This document shows, in pieces, positions 6,283-28,449 of a stretch of DNA of 33,832 nucleotides. The DNA comes from Bacteroidaceae bacterium (lineage in GTDB: Bacteria > Bacteroidota > Bacteroidia > Bacteroidales > Bacteroidaceae). Numbering within the stretch: the first letter of the stretch is position 1; each line of letters starts with the position of its first letter. A program made the position numbers and the translations under genes. Below the pieces are notes generated by a model. It was not told the origin of the DNA. It did no database searches and saw only the letters and a program-made list of their open reading frames with translations. The stretch spans positions 1 to 33,832 of the forward strand of contig JAKSJA010000018.1 in assembly GCA_024398495.1 (NCBI GenBank). The letters run 5' to 3'.

Positions 6283-7701
6283 TTATCCATTCTGTTTAAG
6301 GTCTTCGATCATATTGTCAATTTTCTGCATTTCTTTTGGAATGTTGATGTGTTGTGGGCAATGATTTGTGCATTGACGGCAACCTATGCAATGGTCTGCC
6401 TGTCGCAGACGTGGAACACTGCGGTCATAACCAACAAGAAAAGCTCTACGTTGTTTGGTAAACTCTTCTGACTCACGATTATGAGGCATCGTTCCGTCTT
6501 TTATCATCTTGTTATAGTGTGCAAATATCGTAGGAATGTCTATTCCATAAGGACAAGGCATGCAGTATTCACATCCTGTACAAGGTATATTTTTTAGATC
6601 ATAGATATCCTTGGCAATATCCATGAGAAATATATTTTCTTCTTTTGTGATAGGTATCAATGGAGAGTATGTACATAGGTTTTCACGCAGATGCTCCATA
6701 TAGGTCATACCAGACAATACGCATAAAACGTCTTCAGGTGTACCGGCAAAACGAAATGCCCATGATGCAACGCTGTTTTCAGGACGACGTGTTTTCATTT
6801 TGGCAATGATAGGGTCTGGTACGTTTGCCAGTCGTCCTCCAAGGAGTGGTTCCATTATGATGACAGGTATCTGTCGTTTCTGTAGTTCCTGATAGAGATA
6901 GACAGCATCTGTATTGCGATCATTGATTTCATTGGCATAGTTCCAGTCAAGGTAGTTCATCTCTATTTGTACAAAATCCCAACGATAACGTCCTTCATCA
7001 TGCCATTTAAGAAGCATATCAAAGACTTGCACATCTCCATGGTAAGAGAAACCGAGATTACGAATCTTCCCATTTTTCTTTTGTTCTACAAGCCAGTCAA
7101 GAATGCCGTTATCCATATAACGGACATTGAATGTTTCAAAAGCATCCAGTTCTTTACCATCATTGGTACGTTCCGTGCCACCAATGGAATGTAGCAAAAG
7201 GTAATCAATGTAATCAACCTGCAGATATTTCATGGAATCGTGAAACATATCCTGTGATGCCTTGCGACTCCATGTATCAGGTGAAAAGTTGCTGAGTTTT
7301 GTTGCAACGAAGAATTTATCACGTTGATGCCTTTTTAGGGCTATACCTGTGGCGGCCTCTGACATCCCCTGACAGTATACAGGACTGGTGTCATAATAGT
7401 TGACACCATGCTCTATGGCGTAGTCTATCTCTTTATTGACCATTTCCTGATCGATGACATCAGGGTCGCTGTCTTCATTTTTTTGTAATACTGGCAAACG
7501 CATCATACCATAACCGAGGATGGATACCTTATCGCCAGAGAAATGGTTAGTGCGCATTGTCATCTTGTCCTTTGGTGGCTCTTGTTGGGTTGCAGTTGTT
7601 TGGTGCATGTTATTGTTCGTACAAGCCGTGAGTACTGCCGATGATGCAATTGTTGCACTACCGAATATCTTGAGAAAATCTCGTCGATTTAGATCTTTCA
7701 T
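6283..7701 (-). CDS. Tat-exported aldo/keto reductase with two [4Fe-4S] sites
   Basis: The 472-residue protein begins with a twin-arginine signal (NRRDFLKIFG, Arg6-Arg7) whose hydrophobic stretch ends in LTAC (Cys27), so it is predicted to be a Tat-exported lipoprotein. Residues about 50-340 are an aldo/keto reductase barrel: YDTSPVY carries the catalytic Asp and Tyr, ATKLS the Lys and YLLLHS the His. The C-terminus has two ferredoxin clusters, CTGCEYCMPCP near 374-384 and CIGCRQCTNHCP near 438-449. Related cytoplasmic enzymes with this Fe-S tail are common in anaerobes; the export signal is unusual because NAD(P)H is absent outside the cytoplasm. It is the last gene of the feoAB-tat operon, 21 bases after the polyferredoxin gene. 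Substrate unknown. Confidence 0.9.
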   Translation of the reverse strand: MKDLNRRDFLKIFGSATIASSAVLTACTNNNMHQTTATQQEPPKDKMTMRTNHFSGDKVSILGYGMMRLPVLQKNEDSDPDVIDQEMVNKEIDYAIEHGVNYYDTSPVYCQGMSEAATGIALKRHQRDKFFVATKLSNFSPDTWSRKASQDMFHDSMKYLQVDYIDYLLLHSIGGTERTNDGKELDAFETFNVRYMDNGILDWLVEQKKNGKIRNLGFSYHGDVQVFDMLLKWHDEGRYRWDFVQIEMNYLDWNYANEINDRNTDAVYLYQELQKRQIPVIIMEPLLGGRLANVPDPIIAKMKTRRPENSVASWAFRFAGTPEDVLCVLSGMTYMEHLRENLCTYSPLIPITKEENIFLMDIAKDIYDLKNIPCTGCEYCMPCPYGIDIPTIFAHYNKMIKDGTMPHNRESEEFTKQRRAFLVGYDRSVPRLRQADHCIGCRQCTNHCPQHINIPKEMQKIDNMIEDLKQNG

Positions 7702-7722: not shown

Positions 7723-9189
7723 TTAATTTAATTTATGTGTTTCATGTCCTTCTACATATATTGCAGAGAAAGGACGTGCAGGGCAGAGATATTCGCATGC
7801 ACCACATCCTATACACTTTGTTTCATTGATAGCTGGAATCTGCGGTTTTGATTCGTCTCCATTCGGATAAATCATCTGTATTGCACCGACAGGACAGTGA
7901 CGTGCACAGTTTCCACATTCTTGCCCATCAGTCAAAGGTATGCAGTTCTTTTTTACCCAAACTGCATGCCCAATCTGTGTTGATGATTTTTCTGCCAGCG
8001 TAATAGGTTTGATAGCTCCTGTAGGACATACGTTGGAACAAATATTACATTCTGGTCGGCAATAGCCACGCTCGTAATTCATTGTAGGCTGCATAATATG
8101 CAGTAAATCAGTACTTGGACGCAGTACGTCATTAGGACATTTGCTTATACATAACTGGCAACCAGTACAATGTTGTTGTAAATTGTGTGCAGATGCAGCA
8201 CCGGGTGGTACGATAGGTGTATTGCGTTTTGGTTCAACTTTGTCTTCGATGACAGCAAGTCCACCATCTACCTTCTTTCTCTCCTGTGCGAGTGCTGCTG
8301 TGGTTAATGCAAGACCAGCACCTACGAGAAATTCACGTCTGCCTGTATTATCTTTCTCTGATTGACGTGTTTTGTCTTTTTTAATCCAAGAGAACGTGAT
8401 GGCATTTGAAGAACATTCTTTCAGACAGTTACCACACACCACGCAACGTGAATAATCTATTTTGTGTTCTTTACTGTTGATGCATGAAGCCTTACAGTTG
8501 CGTTCGCATTTATGACAGTTGTTACATAGATCTGTATCAATCTTTACTTTCATACATGAATGGCGGGATATAAATCCTAAGACAGTACCGACAGGACAAA
8601 TAGTGTTGCAGACAGTTCTTCCATTTCGCCATGCAATGATTATTATGACGATGAAACTGATGACAGCGATTACGAATGTAGGCATGGAACGAATCCAGAC
8701 GTCACGATGATAGAAAGTGTAACTGTCTAACCTTTCCGCAAATATGGCAAGGATGTTATTAATATAGATATATATCGGTTGGAATATGTTTTGTACAATA
8801 CGCCCAAAGGTGCTGTAGGGGGCAAGTAACGTTGCCAATGAACCAATACCTAAGATGATGGAAAGGATAAGCATTGCAAGCATTAAATATCTCAGCCATG
8901 TGAGTGGTCGTGAATAAGATTGATGATTTTTCTTCTTGTTGCAATGTGAAATAAAGTCCTGCATAATACCTAAAGGGCATATTACAGAGCAATAGATGCG
9001 GCCGAAGAGGAATGTGAGCACTACAAGTACGGCAATGACTACAATGTTTAATGCCAATACTGCTGGTAAGAACTGTATTTTGGATAACCATCCGAGATAT
9101 GTATGCAACGTACCCGTAAAGTCAAGAAACAACAAGGTGATAAGTGCAAAAATCACTGTTGCCAGTATGATCCTAATTTTTCGTAACAT
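7723..9189 (-). CDS. NapH/NapG-like membrane polyferredoxin with internal Tat motif
   Basis: A 488-residue fusion. The N-terminal half resembles NapH/MauN-type quinol-linked Fe-S membrane proteins: four strong membrane helices (about 6-24, 40-62, 98-123, 169-187), each even one followed by a CxxxCP motif (67-72, 194-199), then two ferredoxin sites (Cys222-232, Cys249-259). Residues 283-301 read TGRREFLVGAGLALTTAAL, a complete twin-arginine signal in the middle of the chain. The rest (341-469) resembles NapG, with four more cysteine sets (341-351, 377-388, 416-432, 459-469). Topology predicts the first ferredoxins inside and the second group outside. By analogy with NapGH it would pass electrons from quinol to an extracytoplasmic acceptor, probably the neighbouring reductase (inference). 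It overlaps tatC by 17 bases. Confidence 0.9.
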   Translation of the reverse strand: MLRKIRIILATVIFALITLLFLDFTGTLHTYLGWLSKIQFLPAVLALNIVVIAVLVVLTFLFGRIYCSVICPLGIMQDFISHCNKKKNHQSYSRPLTWLRYLMLAMLILSIILGIGSLATLLAPYSTFGRIVQNIFQPIYIYINNILAIFAERLDSYTFYHRDVWIRSMPTFVIAVISFIVIIIIAWRNGRTVCNTICPVGTVLGFISRHSCMKVKIDTDLCNNCHKCERNCKASCINSKEHKIDYSRCVVCGNCLKECSSNAITFSWIKKDKTRQSEKDNTGRREFLVGAGLALTTAALAQERKKVDGGLAVIEDKVEPKRNTPIVPPGAASAHNLQQHCTGCQLCISKCPNDVLRPSTDLLHIMQPTMNYERGYCRPECNICSNVCPTGAIKPITLAEKSSTQIGHAVWVKKNCIPLTDGQECGNCARHCPVGAIQMIYPNGDESKPQIPAINETKCIGCGACEYLCPARPFSAIYVEGHETHKLN

Positions 9190-9934
9190 TATGTTTAGAT
9201 GTTTTTAATACGATGAAAATGCTTGCTTCGTAAAGTAGCCATATGGGTAACGATACGATTAGTAATGTCAAGACGTCTGCAGTAGGCGTTATTATTGCAG
9301 CAATTATCAGTATTGCAATGATTGCATGCCTACGGTAGTGTGTCATCCAGTCTGCTTTCAATAGCCTTAGTCGTGCGAGAATCCACGATAATACAGGAAT
9401 TTCGAAGATTATTCCGAATAGAAGTGTCATCATCAGTAATGTGTCTATATATGAACTGATTGTCAGCATGTTATCAATACTGTTGCTAATCTGATATGTT
9501 CCGAGAAACCGTACTGTCAACGGAAATATGATGAGGTAGTTTATTGTTACCCCTACAAGGAACATGATATAAGCAGACAGTACGACACGTATCGTACGCC
9601 GTTTTTCGTTGTCGTACAATGCTGGAGAGATGAATCCATATAGTACGACAATGATATAAGGAGAAACGGCAATGATACCAATGCATAATGCCATTTTCAA
9701 ATGTATCATCATCTGTTCAGTCAGTCCTGTATTGATGAGATGCAGATGAAAATCGTCAGCGTTTATCAGTTTATAGATGATGAAATCCCCATTGCATGGA
9801 GCGAATATAAGACCGAACAGCCAGTCTTTCATACAGAAAGCGGCGATGCTGCCTATTATAACTGCTACAAGGATTCTTAAAATACATCCTCTCAACACGT
9901 CTAAATGCCCCCAGAATGTCTGGTCAGTATTCAT
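9173..9934 (-). CDS. tatC: Sec-independent protein translocase TatC
   Basis: TatC is the multi-spanning receptor for twin-arginine signal peptides. The 253-residue product starts MNTDQTFWGHLDVLRGCILR, matching the conserved TatC N-terminus (xFWxHLxELR), and has six hydrophobic segments, the conserved periplasmic proline region (FISPALYDNEKRRT) and FGIIFEIPVLSW before helix 5. Its ATG directly abuts the tatA stop (TAAATG), and its 3' end overlaps the polyferredoxin gene, so translation is coupled in both directions. The location next to two proteins with RR motifs strongly supports a dedicated Tat module. Confidence 0.95.
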   Translation of the reverse strand: MNTDQTFWGHLDVLRGCILRILVAVIIGSIAAFCMKDWLFGLIFAPCNGDFIIYKLINADDFHLHLINTGLTEQMMIHLKMALCIGIIAVSPYIIVVLYGFISPALYDNEKRRTIRVVLSAYIMFLVGVTINYLIIFPLTVRFLGTYQISNSIDNMLTISSYIDTLLMMTLLFGIIFEIPVLSWILARLRLLKADWMTHYRRHAIIAILIIAAIITPTADVLTLLIVSLPIWLLYEASIFIVLKTSKHNVTKN

Positions 9935-10108
9935 TTATTTCTTCTCTGTATCATCTTCTTTTTTCTCTGATTCGTCAAGTCCTTTCATGCCGTCTTTGAA
10001 ACTCTTAACTCCTTTCCCAAGACCACGCATGAGTTCTGGTATTTTCTTACCACCGAACAATAATAGGATAACGATGATGATAAGGATAATTTCTGGTGTA
10101 CCAATCAT
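9935..10108 (-). CDS. tatA: Sec-independent protein translocase TatA
   Basis: This 57-residue gene is easily missed by length cut-offs. Reading the minus strand from ATG at 10108 to TAA at 9935 gives MIGTPEIILIIIVILLLFGG, then KKIPELMRGLGKGVKSFKDG and a charged tail rich in K, E and D. That is the full TatA plan: a short N-terminal membrane helix, the FGxxKxPEL hinge and an amphipathic helix. TatA oligomers form the transport pore with TatC. No separate TatB is present, so this is a minimal TatAC system. It lies 33 bases after the outer-membrane barrel gene and immediately before tatC. Confidence 0.95.
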   Translation of the reverse strand: MIGTPEIILIIIVILLLFGGKKIPELMRGLGKGVKSFKDGMKGLDESEKKEDDTEKK

Positions 10109-10141: not shown

Positions 10142-11410
10142 TTAGAAATCGAAAGAGTAGGCGAGTGCAAGTGCGAACTCGTTGGCGTTGTTCATAGTAT
10201 CGCTACCTCTGCCTATCCGACGTGTGATGTAGCTGCTCTTTACTGCGATATTTTCAATAGCTTTCCAGTTGATGCCGAAACTCCATAGGCTTACCTTACT
10301 GCACGGATTGCGCAGCTCGCATAGCTCGGATGCAACCTTCTCTTCTGAATCATAGCATTCATAGTGCACAAATGGTATCAGTTCTGGTCCTTTGCTTTCT
10401 TTGTAAAAACAGTTTTTGATATTTACCCCAACTTCACCCATATAACTGATGACCTGTTTGCCTATTGCTCCTTTGACATATTCCAGTTCTTCTCCGTTAA
10501 ACTCTCTGTCGATATTATTCAGCAGACTTCTGTAATATGACGTGAGTTGATATGTTCCGCCCATGAATCCCTGCATATAACTTGCACGTGCAGTGAAATA
10601 ATCATTTTGATACTGTCCGTCAGCAAACAAGATTGTTACAGGTACTGATTGAGTCTTGTTGAAGTTTTTAAGACAATACTCCTTATAACCACTGTAAAGC
10701 GACATGTTCCTTGCTGTGTTGGTGCAGTAATAGATTCCTGCGCCGAATCTCATGTTTCTTATGCCATCATATCCTAAATTCAATGATATTGCTGGTGACG
10801 AGAAGAATGAATCATCTTTGAAGAAACCTTGTGTGGCATATTGTGTCCAGTATTGTGCAGAGTATTTTAATGGTGTCAATGCTGTTGTGAAACTTGCTTG
10901 GTAACTGAGACCGCATTTTAATTTTCCAAGTAACGAAACTCCTGTCTCAATGAATGGACAAGGAATGAGAGCATATTCACCTTCCGGGTCACCGGCAGTA
11001 AAATAATCTAAGTACGTATAGCCATTGTTACAGTGGCCTATTGGTAGAATGAACATACCTGCTTTGATATTGAATGTAGGTGTGAACTCTCTTGTCAAAG
11101 ATATCTCATCCACCTGAATATTGCTTTCACTTATAAATTCAACGTCAGCCGTTGCCTTCCATTTTGGTGCAAATTGATATTGCATATTTACATCAAAACT
11201 TGGTATGCGTGCGGTGGCAGAGTGTTCTGTTTCCGGTCCTTTTGGTGTGGCAAATCTATCATTGGAATAGTTTTTGATTGCTGCATCAAATTCGCCGCTG
11301 ATAGTTAGTACAATCTTTTTGTCTTCTTTTCCCTTTGTGTCTTGAGCGAATATGTTGCCTGTCATCAATGTCAAGCAAAGGAAAAGTATTGAAAGTAATG
11401 TCTTTTTCAT
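10142..11410 (-). CDS. Outer-membrane beta-barrel (porin-like) protein
   Basis: The 422-residue product has a signal peptide (MKKTLLSILFLCLTLMTGNIFAQ) and then alternating aromatic/polar strands with no extended hydrophobic segment, ending in ...ALAYSFDF, the terminal-Phe signature of outer-membrane barrels. Phrases such as FNIKAGMFILPIGHCNNGYTYLD are reminiscent of phosphate-selective-porin-type (OprO/P) barrels, but I would not assign a substrate. It contains an unusual number of cysteines for a porin (more than ten). It lies between feoAB (40 bases upstream) and tatA (33 bases downstream) on the same strand without a terminator, so it is probably co-transcribed and may admit the ion or substrate handled by the operon. 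Confidence 0.82.
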   Translation of the reverse strand: MKKTLLSILFLCLTLMTGNIFAQDTKGKEDKKIVLTISGEFDAAIKNYSNDRFATPKGPETEHSATARIPSFDVNMQYQFAPKWKATADVEFISESNIQVDEISLTREFTPTFNIKAGMFILPIGHCNNGYTYLDYFTAGDPEGEYALIPCPFIETGVSLLGKLKCGLSYQASFTTALTPLKYSAQYWTQYATQGFFKDDSFFSSPAISLNLGYDGIRNMRFGAGIYYCTNTARNMSLYSGYKEYCLKNFNKTQSVPVTILFADGQYQNDYFTARASYMQGFMGGTYQLTSYYRSLLNNIDREFNGEELEYVKGAIGKQVISYMGEVGVNIKNCFYKESKGPELIPFVHYECYDSEEKVASELCELRNPCSKVSLWSFGINWKAIENIAVKSSYITRRIGRGSDTMNNANEFALALAYSFDF

Positions 11411-11450
11411 TCTAAGTTATCAGTTAATCTTGAAAATGTAAGCATTAGAG

Positions 11451-13820
11451 TCAGGCAAAAAGTAATCCAATCTGTGTTATCAGTGCAGATACAATCCATG
11501 CTATCGCCGTTGTATATACAGCGGCAAACAATGCCCATTGCCATCCACTCTCATTCTTTATTGCTATTATCACGGCGAAGCAAGGGAAGTACAGCAATAC
11601 GAATATGATGAATGAGAATGCTATCAATGGTGTTATGCCATCCTGCATCATCAGTTGTTTCATCACTTTGAAGTTGTTTTCGCCCTCACCCATATTCTCA
11701 TCATCAGAATAGTTCTCTCCGTTGTAGAGAACTCCCATCGTGGATGCAACAATTTCTTTTGCACCGACTCCGGCAACAATGCCGACATCAAGTTTCCAGT
11801 CGAAACCCTGCGGCGTGAACACAGGGGCGATAGCTTTTCCTATCTGTCCTATGTAACTCTGTTCCTGTTGTTCCTGTCTGTTCAGTTCTGCATTATGCGG
11901 GAAATATGAAAGACACCATACAGCGATACTGGCAACCATGATTATCGTTCCCATCTTCTTGAGATATTGTTTCCCTTTTTCCCAAGTGTGTCGTCCTATT
12001 GCTTTCCATGTAGGAAAACGGTAGGGCGGAAGTTCCATTACAAATGGTATGTCTTCGCCTTTGAAGAGGAAACGGCTGAATATCTTGCTCATGACACATG
12101 CCACAATGATTCCGATGAGATAAATGGCAAAGAGGATGAGACTTTGATATTTCACCGCAAAGAACGTACCTATCAGCATGATGTATATCGGCAGCCGTGC
12201 CGAACAACTCATGAACGGTGTTATCAGCATCGTTATCATTCGTGAATGTCTGCTTTCTATGATCCTCGTTGACATTATCGCCGGCACATTGCAACCAAAT
12301 CCCATTATCATCGGTATGAACGACTTGCCATGCAAACCAATCTTGTGCATCAGTTTGTCCATGATGAAGGCAGCACGCGACATGTAGCCACTGTCTTCCA
12401 TATAGGAGATGAAAAAGTATAATATCAGAATGTTTGGCAGGAAGATTATAACCCCACCAACACCTGCTATTATTCCATCTACAATACAGTCTTTGAGGAT
12501 ACCTGCCGGCATATAATTTCCTACTATTTTCCCGAACCATTGTACAAGAGATTCTATCCAATCCATAGGATATTGCCCAAGGTCAAAGGTCACCTTGAAC
12601 ATAAGATAGAGGATTGCGAGAAAGATAGGGAAACCGAAATACTTGTGTGTTAGTATTTTGTCAAGAATGTGAGTAAATTGATAAGTATCTTCTTTTTCTC
12701 CCGTCTTATAGTCTGCTTCCTGCAATGCACCATGGATGAAACCGTATTTCGCATCCATGATAGCAGTTTCACTGTCCTGTTTTGTTTCTTCTCTCACACG
12801 TGCGGCAACCTTCTCTTTCTGTTGTAGCATATCTTCTCCGTACGGTTGGCGTGAAATGATATTTTCAATATCTTTATCTCCTTCGAGTAGTTTGATGGCA
12901 AGATAGCGTGTAGAGTATTTGTTGCTGAGGCTGTTGTCTGTCTTCAGGCTTTTCTGCAACTCGGTAATACCGTTTTCAATTTCATGCCCGTGGTTGATGT
13001 GTATGTGTCTGAAGTTCGGCTCTTCATTTTCCTTGCCTTCATACAGGTCTATACATTTCTGCAACAGAGCCTTTACGCCACGTCCGGTAGTGAAAACGGT
13101 TGGTATCATAGGCACACCGAACAGTTCACTTATCCTGTCACAGTCTATGTTGTCGCCACGCTTCTCTGCCTCGTCATACATGTTGAGGGCACAGACAATG
13201 CGCAAGTGCATGTCTATGAGTTGTGTGGTGAGATAAAGATTGCGCTCAAGATTGCTCGTGTCAATGACATTGATGATTATGTCCGGGGCATTGTCAACAA
13301 TCTCCTTTCGTACATACAGTTCTTCTGGGGAATATGCTGACAGGGAGTATGTCCCGGGTAAATCAACGAGGTTGAACTGATAACCGTTATATTCACACTT
13401 TCCGACCTTTGCATCTACGGTGACACCGCTATAGTTGCCGACACGTTCATGTGCTCCTGAAGCAAAGTTGAACAGCGATGTCTTTCCACAGTTGGGATTG
13501 CCAACCAAAGCAACATTGATGACATTGCCAATATCGGTATGTTGTTCATTTGCAGTGGTGTGTTCTTTGGCAGCAGATGATTTCTTGTTTTTTGGTGTTT
13601 CTTTGATAACTTCAATCTGTTGTGCTTCATCATGGCGGAGAGACACTTCATACCCCATTATTTTATATTTCACGGGGTCATGAAAAGGTGCATTTTGCAG
13701 GACTTCTACCTGCTGCCCTTTGATGAATCCCATTTCGATGATACGCTTGCGGAATCCACCGTGTCCCTTTACCTTTATGATAATACCCTTATCCCCAGTA
13801 TGGAGTTCTCCTAAATTCAT
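11451..13820 (-). CDS. feoB: FeoA-FeoB fusion ferrous iron transporter
   Basis: FeoB imports Fe2+ across the inner membrane with a GTPase-regulated pore. The 789-residue protein has a FeoA/SH3-like domain at 1-75 (MNLGELHTGDKGIIIKVKGH), a linker, and the FeoB G domain with G1 GNPNCGKTS (107-115), G3 DLPG (153-156) and G4 NMYD (213-216). The membrane part begins near 390 and includes the two Gate-type repeats with conserved cysteines (FGCNVPAIMSTR and the PFMSCSARLPIY region). FeoA-FeoB fusion is common in Bacteroidetes. The start ATG at 13820 is preceded by a -7 box at 13845-13852. It is the first gene of a six-gene minus-strand operon. Confidence 0.96.
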   Translation of the reverse strand: MNLGELHTGDKGIIIKVKGHGGFRKRIIEMGFIKGQQVEVLQNAPFHDPVKYKIMGYEVSLRHDEAQQIEVIKETPKNKKSSAAKEHTTANEQHTDIGNVINVALVGNPNCGKTSLFNFASGAHERVGNYSGVTVDAKVGKCEYNGYQFNLVDLPGTYSLSAYSPEELYVRKEIVDNAPDIIINVIDTSNLERNLYLTTQLIDMHLRIVCALNMYDEAEKRGDNIDCDRISELFGVPMIPTVFTTGRGVKALLQKCIDLYEGKENEEPNFRHIHINHGHEIENGITELQKSLKTDNSLSNKYSTRYLAIKLLEGDKDIENIISRQPYGEDMLQQKEKVAARVREETKQDSETAIMDAKYGFIHGALQEADYKTGEKEDTYQFTHILDKILTHKYFGFPIFLAILYLMFKVTFDLGQYPMDWIESLVQWFGKIVGNYMPAGILKDCIVDGIIAGVGGVIIFLPNILILYFFISYMEDSGYMSRAAFIMDKLMHKIGLHGKSFIPMIMGFGCNVPAIMSTRIIESRHSRMITMLITPFMSCSARLPIYIMLIGTFFAVKYQSLILFAIYLIGIIVACVMSKIFSRFLFKGEDIPFVMELPPYRFPTWKAIGRHTWEKGKQYLKKMGTIIMVASIAVWCLSYFPHNAELNRQEQQEQSYIGQIGKAIAPVFTPQGFDWKLDVGIVAGVGAKEIVASTMGVLYNGENYSDDENMGEGENNFKVMKQLMMQDGITPLIAFSFIIFVLLYFPCFAVIIAIKNESGWQWALFAAVYTTAIAWIVSALITQIGLLFA

Positions 13821-27690: not shown

Positions 27691-28449
27691 ATGATATACT
27701 ATTTTTCAGGAACAGGCAATTCTCGGTGGGCGGCACAGACTCTTGCCGATTCTCTGCACGAGCATCTCGCCTTCATACCTGACGTAAAGTCTCAGACAAC
27801 CACAGAAAAAGACGATAGGACTCTCGGCATTGTCTTTCCCGTCAACGGATGGATGCCGCCGAAGATTGTACGCGACTTCATCAAACATCTTGACGGTACG
27901 AAGATAGACTATTGTTACTGCCTTATCACCGCCGGTGACAGTATCGGCGAAGCTGTGCGCGTACTGCGTCATGACCTGAAGAAAGTCAACATCCGTCTTG
28001 ATGCAGCCTTTTCTCTGCTCATGCCGGAGAGTTATGTTTGTATGCCGGGGTTCTATACAGATAAACCGGAAAGAGAACGGAGAAAGATAGACAGGGCAAC
28101 GGAAGACTTGAAAGAGTTTGCAGACGACATTCTGAATCGCCACCATGTGGAGAAGACCACCAAAGGCTTTCTGCCGTATCTTCTTACTTACGTCTTGGGC
28201 ATACCTTTCAACCATATATTCATCACGGATAAACCGTTTAAGGTAGATGCCTCGCGCTGTACCCATTGTGGTATGTGTGCCAAGGTGTGCCCCGTACATA
28301 ATATAACGATGTCAGACACACCGGAGTGGCATAAGGATGGTACCTGTACCAACTGTATGGCATGTTATCATCATTGTCCCGTTCATGCCATAAACTATTG
28401 GACAACGAAGAAAAAAGGACAGTATTATTTTGGAAGGAATAAAAGATGA
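27691..28449 (+). CDS. EFR1-type flavodoxin/ferredoxin protein
   Basis: The 252-residue product has a flavodoxin-like N-domain (MIYYFSGTGNSRWAAQTLA, the FMN-phosphate loop, and FPVNGWMPPKIVRDFI) and a C-terminal double ferredoxin with CTHCGMCAKVCP and CTNCMACYHHCP. This is the architecture of the EFR1 family, found in many anaerobes and of uncertain role, probably an electron carrier between flavin and Fe-S centres. It overlaps the DUF1846 start by four bases (ATGA), so the pair is translationally coupled. Confidence 0.9.
   Translation: MIYYFSGTGNSRWAAQTLADSLHEHLAFIPDVKSQTTTEKDDRTLGIVFPVNGWMPPKIVRDFIKHLDGTKIDYCYCLITAGDSIGEAVRVLRHDLKKVNIRLDAAFSLLMPESYVCMPGFYTDKPERERRKIDRATEDLKEFADDILNRHHVEKTTKGFLPYLLTYVLGIPFNHIFITDKPFKVDASRCTHCGMCAKVCPVHNITMSDTPEWHKDGTCTNCMACYHHCPVHAINYWTTKKKGQYYFGRNKR

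Follow-up and report, generated by a model that had tools for sequence, protein, structure and literature searches.

The window, as the whole analysed stretch of 33,832 nucleotides from a Bacteroidaceae bacterium is called here, carries on its minus strand a run of four genes in the order tatA, tatC, a napH-napG type fusion and a reductase. The tatA gene abuts tatC, tatC overlaps the start of the fusion gene by 17 nucleotides and the reductase gene starts 21 nucleotides after the fusion, in keeping with the original prediction that tatAC sits beside the fusion. The features of the run, all on the minus strand, are as follows.

9935..10108, minus: tatA, 57 aa, the one TatA-family match detected in genome G000, which is incomplete
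9173..9934, minus: tatC, PF00902 and TIGR00945 above cut-off
7723..9189, minus: NapH-NapG fusion, 488 aa (open reading frame, profile matches, E. coli K-12 alignments)
8371..9189, minus: NapH-like half (residues 1-273) containing four predicted membrane helices (profile match, NapH alignment, model)
8977..8991, minus: first CX3CP motif, C67-C71, invariant in 67 aligned rows
8596..8610, minus: second CX3CP motif, C194-C198, invariant in the same 67 rows
8413..8526, minus: two 4Fe-4S cysteine sets with predicted cytoplasmic location, C222-C232 and C249-C259, invariant in the 67 rows
8287..8346, minus: internal Tat-type signal, T282 to A301, with R284-R285 at 8335-8340 (sequence and conservation)
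8284..8289, minus: predicted signal peptidase I site A301/Q302 (conservation and the Q-rule, PMC5837995)
7726..8286, minus: NapG-like half, Q302-N488 (NapG profile and NapG alignment)
7783..8169, minus: four 4Fe-4S cysteine sets of the NapG-like half, C341-C469, invariant in the 67 rows
6283..7701, minus: aldo/keto reductase, 472 aa, with a C-terminal 4Fe-4S domain, the proposed partner (PF00248 and Fer4 families)
7621..7686, minus: reductase N-terminal Tat signal (R6-R7) and lipobox LTAC (C27) (sequence)

Directly upstream of tatA and on the same strand (10142-13820) lie the genes for a 422-residue protein without a Pfam match, which looks like an outer-membrane protein, and for a FeoA-FeoB fusion. 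FeoAB was considered as part of the unit and rejected because the only loci taken that share the linkage are the window, its near copy L036 and L219, where FeoAB lies downstream of the reductase. Elsewhere in the window, positions 27691-28449 encode a flavodoxin-ferredoxin type protein which by eye resembles the EFR1 family.

Both halves of the fusion protein are homologous to subunits of the NapG-NapH quinol dehydrogenase of E. coli K-12. In direct comparison residues 41-267 align with NapH 80-278 (E 6e-11) and residues 276-469 with NapG 3-196 (E 2e-13), with the two RR motifs superposed. The best NapH model matches fall on residues 159-267, and the NapG model PRK09476 covers residues 276-471 starting at profile position 3, so that the internal signal of the fusion aligns with NapG's own signal. 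NapH and NapG models both match all 67 aligned members at E 1e-5, and the cysteines of the six four-cysteine sets and of the two CX3CP motifs are invariant among these members. The scores amount to 64.8 of 269 (PRK09476) and 64.2 of 178.85 bits (TIGR00397) against the curated cut-offs of the NapG models and to 72.9 of 234 (PRK09477) and 77.7 of 213.05 bits (TIGR02163) against those of the NapH models; as all of them are far below the cut-offs, the fusion is a distant homologue and not an equivalog. It further differs from the E. coli system in that the latter has separate genes in the order napG-napH, whereas the order in the fusion is NapH-NapG. An assembly artefact is ruled out, since every one of the 91 genus rows has a single uninterrupted frame, 483-540 aa long. 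Sequence and fold searches of solved structures listed no NapH-NapG relative; the matches were to ferredoxin-like parts, in the second search mainly to residues 406-488, and the result excludes nothing.

The original prediction of a NapH-NapG fusion, with two ferredoxin sites in the membrane half, four cysteine sets in the other and the NapG signal retained as an internal Tat-type signal, is thus upheld by the profile matches and by the alignment with the separate E. coli proteins. Its anatomy was incomplete, with no mention of the two CX3CP motifs, of a site of the cleavage type or of the reductase as partner. The peptide that it quoted, TGRREFLVGAGLALTTAAL, is present but occupies residues 282-300, one off from the numbering given, while R284-R285 was placed correctly.

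The AlphaFold2 model of the fusion has a mean pLDDT of 87.8 and a pTM of 0.86 and is confident for both halves. It predicts four helices in the NapH-like half (residues 2-22, 49-62, 97-113 and 169-189), for which insertion energies of -2.3 to -4.3 are predicted, as compared to +1.69 for the internal signal, with approximate scale parameters. The four helices claimed to precede the signal are therefore predicted by model and insertion energy alike. Another long helix of the model (124-153) scores +3.4 and is read as lying outside the membrane. Residues 275-310 around the signal have a pLDDT below 50 and form no helix, although the low pLDDT could merely reflect a poor alignment there. The uncharged stretch that follows the second arginine of the signal comprises 14-16 residues in 83 of 91 genus rows and 14-19 in all of them.

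The original prediction considered such a protein to be a new, second class of dual Sec/Tat substrate, but this class has already been published with experiments. A survey of genomes for Tat motifs in internal positions yielded a polyferredoxin with seven clusters and five helices, which the authors state to be a NapH-NapG fusion and whose reporter export depends on Tat (Tooke et al. 2017, PMC5449189). Within Bacteroidota, the window protein belongs to this class or to a close sister of it. Like the MLMS-1 polyferredoxin Q1NSB0 and its relatives, it is a NapH-NapG fusion with four helices, an even number, followed by a twin-arginine motif (here R284-R285) before a weakly hydrophobic segment, basic residues behind this segment (here ERKK) and four exported 4Fe-4S sets (here predicted to be so) (PMC5449189). 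Low hydrophobicity together with following positive charges has been shown to play a role in dual Sec/Tat insertion, and the signal energy of the window protein falls within the range of 0.297 to 1.715 given for the last helix of seven native proteins (PMC5449189). The RR pair is present in the window protein but is not conserved as a pair among its relatives, and this loss is counted as a variant, not as exclusion from the class. Dual Sec/Tat insertion was shown with reporters for Q1NSB0. In that paper its TMD5 is regarded as an anchor, whereas the window protein has a shorter segment with a Q-rule cleavage-type site; the interchange of arginine and lysine at the first position and the reductase partner are further features of the window family. 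A cleavage site was introduced into the published fusions by the authors themselves; the relatives they name belong to Chloroflexi, Nitrospirae and Euryarchaeota, and Bacteroidetes is mentioned for another family (PMC5449189). Actinobacterial Rieske proteins (Sco2149) similarly combine Sec helices with an internal Tat signal, but they carry another cofactor domain and their last helix stays in the membrane (PMC5449189, PMC13186574). No paper on this Bacteroidota branch was among the matches listed by searches of open-access literature, in which most subscription journals are missing. What is added to the prior art is the conserved cleavage-type site, the switching between arginine and lysine at the first position and the split of the family by partner.

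Conservation of the signal was followed in a genus set of 91 rows, made up of the window and 90 fetched stretches which were picked along a list of at least that many fusion matches and not by motif. The second arginine and the phenylalanine of the motif are invariant in all 91 rows, while the first position is lysine in 47 and arginine in 44. At least 20 switches at this position are needed within the genus on a tree from which the signal region had been left out. Lysine is encoded by AAG or AAA and arginine by CGN in 41 of the 44 rows, so that two or more base changes are required for most of these exchanges. In a wider set of 115 rows, with the arginines taken from alignment columns, the pair is RR in 67, KR in 46, KK in one (L208) and RK in one (L242), and the second arginine is thus kept in 113. 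At 90 of the same loci the reductase could be read in 89 cases, and its N-terminal Tat signal is RR in every one of them, including all 47 with a KR fusion. Since the second arginine is kept throughout the genus and nearly throughout the wider set, the motif is not due to chance, and since exchange is almost only from arginine to lysine at the first position, it is read as real and relaxed. These patterns suggest that tethering of the signal to the membrane may relax the need for the first arginine. The expectation that homologues lacking the RR pair would mark the motif as accidental therefore has a mixed outcome: the pair is not conserved, but the second arginine is almost always kept and nearly all exchanges are to lysine at the first position. 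The Tat signal model TIGR01409 matches at 8287-8340 with 13.7 bits, below its cut-off of 16.7, and this is its only match with E <=0.5 in the window's genome (62.7% complete); as the model finds few Tat signals and misses the reductase of the window, it is unfit for counting Tat substrates. A DNA pattern for RR-x-F in the same genome gave fewer matches than its backward control.

The dependence of the fusion on Tat is further suggested by its co-occurrence with tatC, which is given as counts because shared ancestry inflates any P value. Among 249 genomes of the genus the fusion is found at E 1e-30 in 178 and tatC in 190; both are found in 172, the fusion only in six, tatC only in 18 and neither in 53. 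The six fusion-only genomes are 71-88% complete. As these exceptions all fall below 90% completeness, tatC is found in all 68 fusion-bearing genomes among the 107 with at least 90% completeness and at most 5% contamination. At the level of the locus, tatC lies inside the stretch taken in 75 of the 91 genus rows, upstream in 70 and downstream in five. The 53 genomes in which neither tatC nor the fusion was found include G010, G016, G040 and G061, which consist of one to three contigs at 99% completeness, and in such genomes the Tat system seems to be absent together with the fusion module. Searches for TatA-family proteins in nine genus genomes gave one match in six, a second weak one in G183 and none in G016 and G040. 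Across the phylum 42 of the 395 genomes sampled match the fusion at E 1e-40. Some genomes, namely G217 (C3, C80), G611 and G615, carry two or three copies; of these, G217 is listed at 10% contamination so that its copies may come from mixed genomes.

In the window protein 16 residues separate R285 from the predicted cleavage site A301/Q302. This A-x-A/Q site is conserved in the genus, position -1 being alanine in 90 rows and glycine in one and position +1 glutamine in 86 and glutamate in five. The 64 rows with the main spacing have column entropies of 0.00 and 0.20 at -1 and +1 but of 1.67 and 1.65 at -2 and +2, respectively, and the pattern is the same in the 22 rows that are one residue longer (0.27, 0.57, 2.00 and 2.24 at -1, +1, -2 and +2, respectively). 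Positions -1 and +1 thus rank with the columns of lowest entropy in the signal, whereas -2 is variable. The signal peptidase I of Bacteroidetes exposes glutamine in most of its substrates, with pyroglutamate seen in reanalysed mass spectrometry data (PMC5837995), and the fusion has the residues of this Q-rule, namely a small or permitted one at -3, a small one at -1 and glutamine at +1. The same paper names inner-membrane proteins as remaining to be tested for the rule, and the words 'Tat' and 'twin-arginine' are absent from its text (PMC5837995). E. coli NapG likewise has A-x-A behind its signal.

The DGG-motif group, which as defined by script includes one DUF362-linked row (L199), counts 112 rows, and 102 of them have an A/Q pair, against 13.0 expected from linker shuffling; once the group is reduced to 60% identity, the pair is present in 10 of 14 against 0.95. 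Elsewhere it occurs in 39 of 75 rows of other Bacteroidota (4.4 expected), three of eight of Ignavibacteria/Chlorobi (0.2) and three of nine outside Bacteroidota (0.7). These statistics disregard kinship, related sequences not being independent, and the automatic signal finder behind the counts chose a wrong or shifted place in some rows (e.g. L161, L175 and L224) and none in L187. Read by eye, the 24 reductase-linked rows of the wide set have A/Q in 20, A/E in three and S/Q in one. On the wide tree A/Q changes 25 times, and some matches outside the reductase-linked clade are implausible as cut sites (L132). The candidate site is thus firm in the clade of the window and patchy elsewhere, and as it comes and goes outside the reductase-linked clade, cleavage cannot be a rule of the family. 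L221 (3983-5515) and L234 (3986-5599) have the lipobox-like sequences LSAC and IQGC, respectively, in place of the signal peptidase I site, so that their NapG half may become a lipoprotein.

The reductase gene follows the fusion on the same strand at a distance of 6-389 nucleotides in 90 of 91 genus rows, the exception being L042, with only a partial match in L120. The RR pair and the lipobox are each found in 91 of 92 reductase homologues, L060 being mis-started and scored without RR and L106 missed by the lipobox pattern. Outside this group the neighbourhood differs. Among the named relatives (the best 80 of 438 confirmed candidates), 18 adjoin a reductase and 55 lie directly after a DUF362-like gene, and none has both. 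The remaining seven comprise L165, L179, L187 and L192, which start no more than about 210 bases from the end of a contig, and L211, L224 and L242, where neither a reductase nor a DUF362-like neighbour was detected. DUF362 was confirmed by Pfam in six of six neighbours tested. The fusions beside the 55 DUF362 neighbours have RR in 32 cases, KR in 22 and KK in one. The neighbours themselves have RR near the N-terminus in 47 of 50 readable cases, 45 recognised by script and L195 and L204 by eye; L216 has RK, L221 and L233 have no pair, and the N-termini of L177, L189, L194, L202 and L208 lie outside the 50 read. DUF362-linked fusions outside the window's clade are those of L182, L185, L209, L223, L183, L197, L193, L171 and 47 further named loci. 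The family is thus split by partner, with the Fe-S aldo/keto reductase here and a DUF362 protein in most other named relatives among the best 80 of 438. The fusion would thus seem to be a shared wiring element whose exported partners are exchangeable.

Taken together, these observations are best explained by a single precursor of two redox proteins that uses Sec and Tat, is cut by signal peptidase I and forms an electron wire to the reductase, a reading to which we assign a probability of roughly 0.6. The NapH-like half would be inserted by Sec as four helices, as judged from the sequence and the published homologue, while the weakly hydrophobic signal behind R285 would not be retained by Sec. 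The NapG-like half may then take up its four 4Fe-4S clusters in the cytoplasm and be exported in the folded state by the TatAC encoded alongside. Signal peptidase I would probably cut at the conserved A301/Q302 site, after which NapH would retain a short hydrophobic tail and the NapG-like protein would be set free, its N-terminal glutamine being cyclised as is usual in Bacteroidota. Together the NapH and NapG parts would act as an electron wire that is linked to quinol and connects the membrane with the periplasm. Its partner, to judge from the conserved neighbourhood, would be the Fe-S aldo/keto reductase, a lipoprotein that carries a Tat signal of its own. The steps of this scheme are not equally secure: analogy and sequence make dual Sec/Tat export very likely, the reductase is a likely partner on the strength of gene order, and cutting of the chain after export is probable to a slightly lesser degree, as a short uncharged stretch ends in a conserved A-x-A/Q that matches the Q-rule. 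A single precursor that is cut by signal peptidase into two respiratory subunits is known from the cytochrome b/c1 precursor FbcH of Bradyrhizobium which, unlike the fusion, is a haem protein exported by Sec and not by Tat. A nicotinamide-type reductase outside the cytoplasm could be accounted for by export with its cofactor bound, which is one possibility and has a precedent in the glucose-fructose oxidoreductase of Zymomonas.

That the motif is accidental and the second half stays in the cytoplasm is highly improbable. The frequent lysine at the first position would fit this explanation, as tested Tat signals tolerate even lysine poorly (review, PMC7317946), yet the invariant second arginine and phenylalanine, the homology to the signal of NapG, the co-occurrence with tatC, the published Tat dependence of a homologue (PMC5449189) and a downstream protein with its own Tat signal in 90 of 91 rows all oppose it. 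A more serious contender, though still somewhat unlikely, is that the same Sec/Tat route is taken but no cut is made, the signal then serving as a fifth anchor in the membrane, in line with the drawing of the published polyferredoxins, where TMD5 is treated as the final helix of the MLMS-1 protein with 22 residues by prediction (PMC5449189). Stretches of 19-23 uncharged residues lacking A/Q in some homologues (L167, L212 and L223) would suit an anchor, in contrast to the short stretch in the genus, the conserved A-x-A/Q at its end, which an anchor would not need, and the lack of a helix at the signal in the model.

It may also be asked whether the fusion works with the reductase at all, or is instead a general electron-delivery unit whose neighbourhood is explained by a shared need for Tat. 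In favour of this, tatAC is linked as well, and a relative of the reductase is found without the fusion in six of the 18 tatC-only genomes. The two of these that were read, L245 and L246 (G254 and G247, with tatC and no fusion at E 1e-30), encode a related Tat reductase without a lipobox. Such a unit is nevertheless unlikely, as the reductase-linked rows represent one change on the tree, albeit on a branch with low support, and in the 16 of 91 loci without tatC in the stretch taken the reductase still follows in 15.

The preferred reading of a cleaved dual Sec/Tat precursor can be extended to the Bacteroidales at about even odds: a respiratory precursor would use two translocases in turn and be cut at its internal Tat signal, with Tat releasing a folded subunit, and the motif would have relaxed to [RK]R, with at least 20 switches in one genus, since the membrane already tethers the signal, while the reductase stayed RR. 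If true, the Tat pathway could finish and release parts of membrane proteins, beyond anchoring them, and the strictness of the twin-arginine rule would be a matter of the way in which the signal arrives at TatC. The KR and RR fusions beside RR reductases would then serve as a natural experiment on the role of the first arginine, and Bacteroidota with one TatA and one TatC would offer a simple translocase for testing both ideas.
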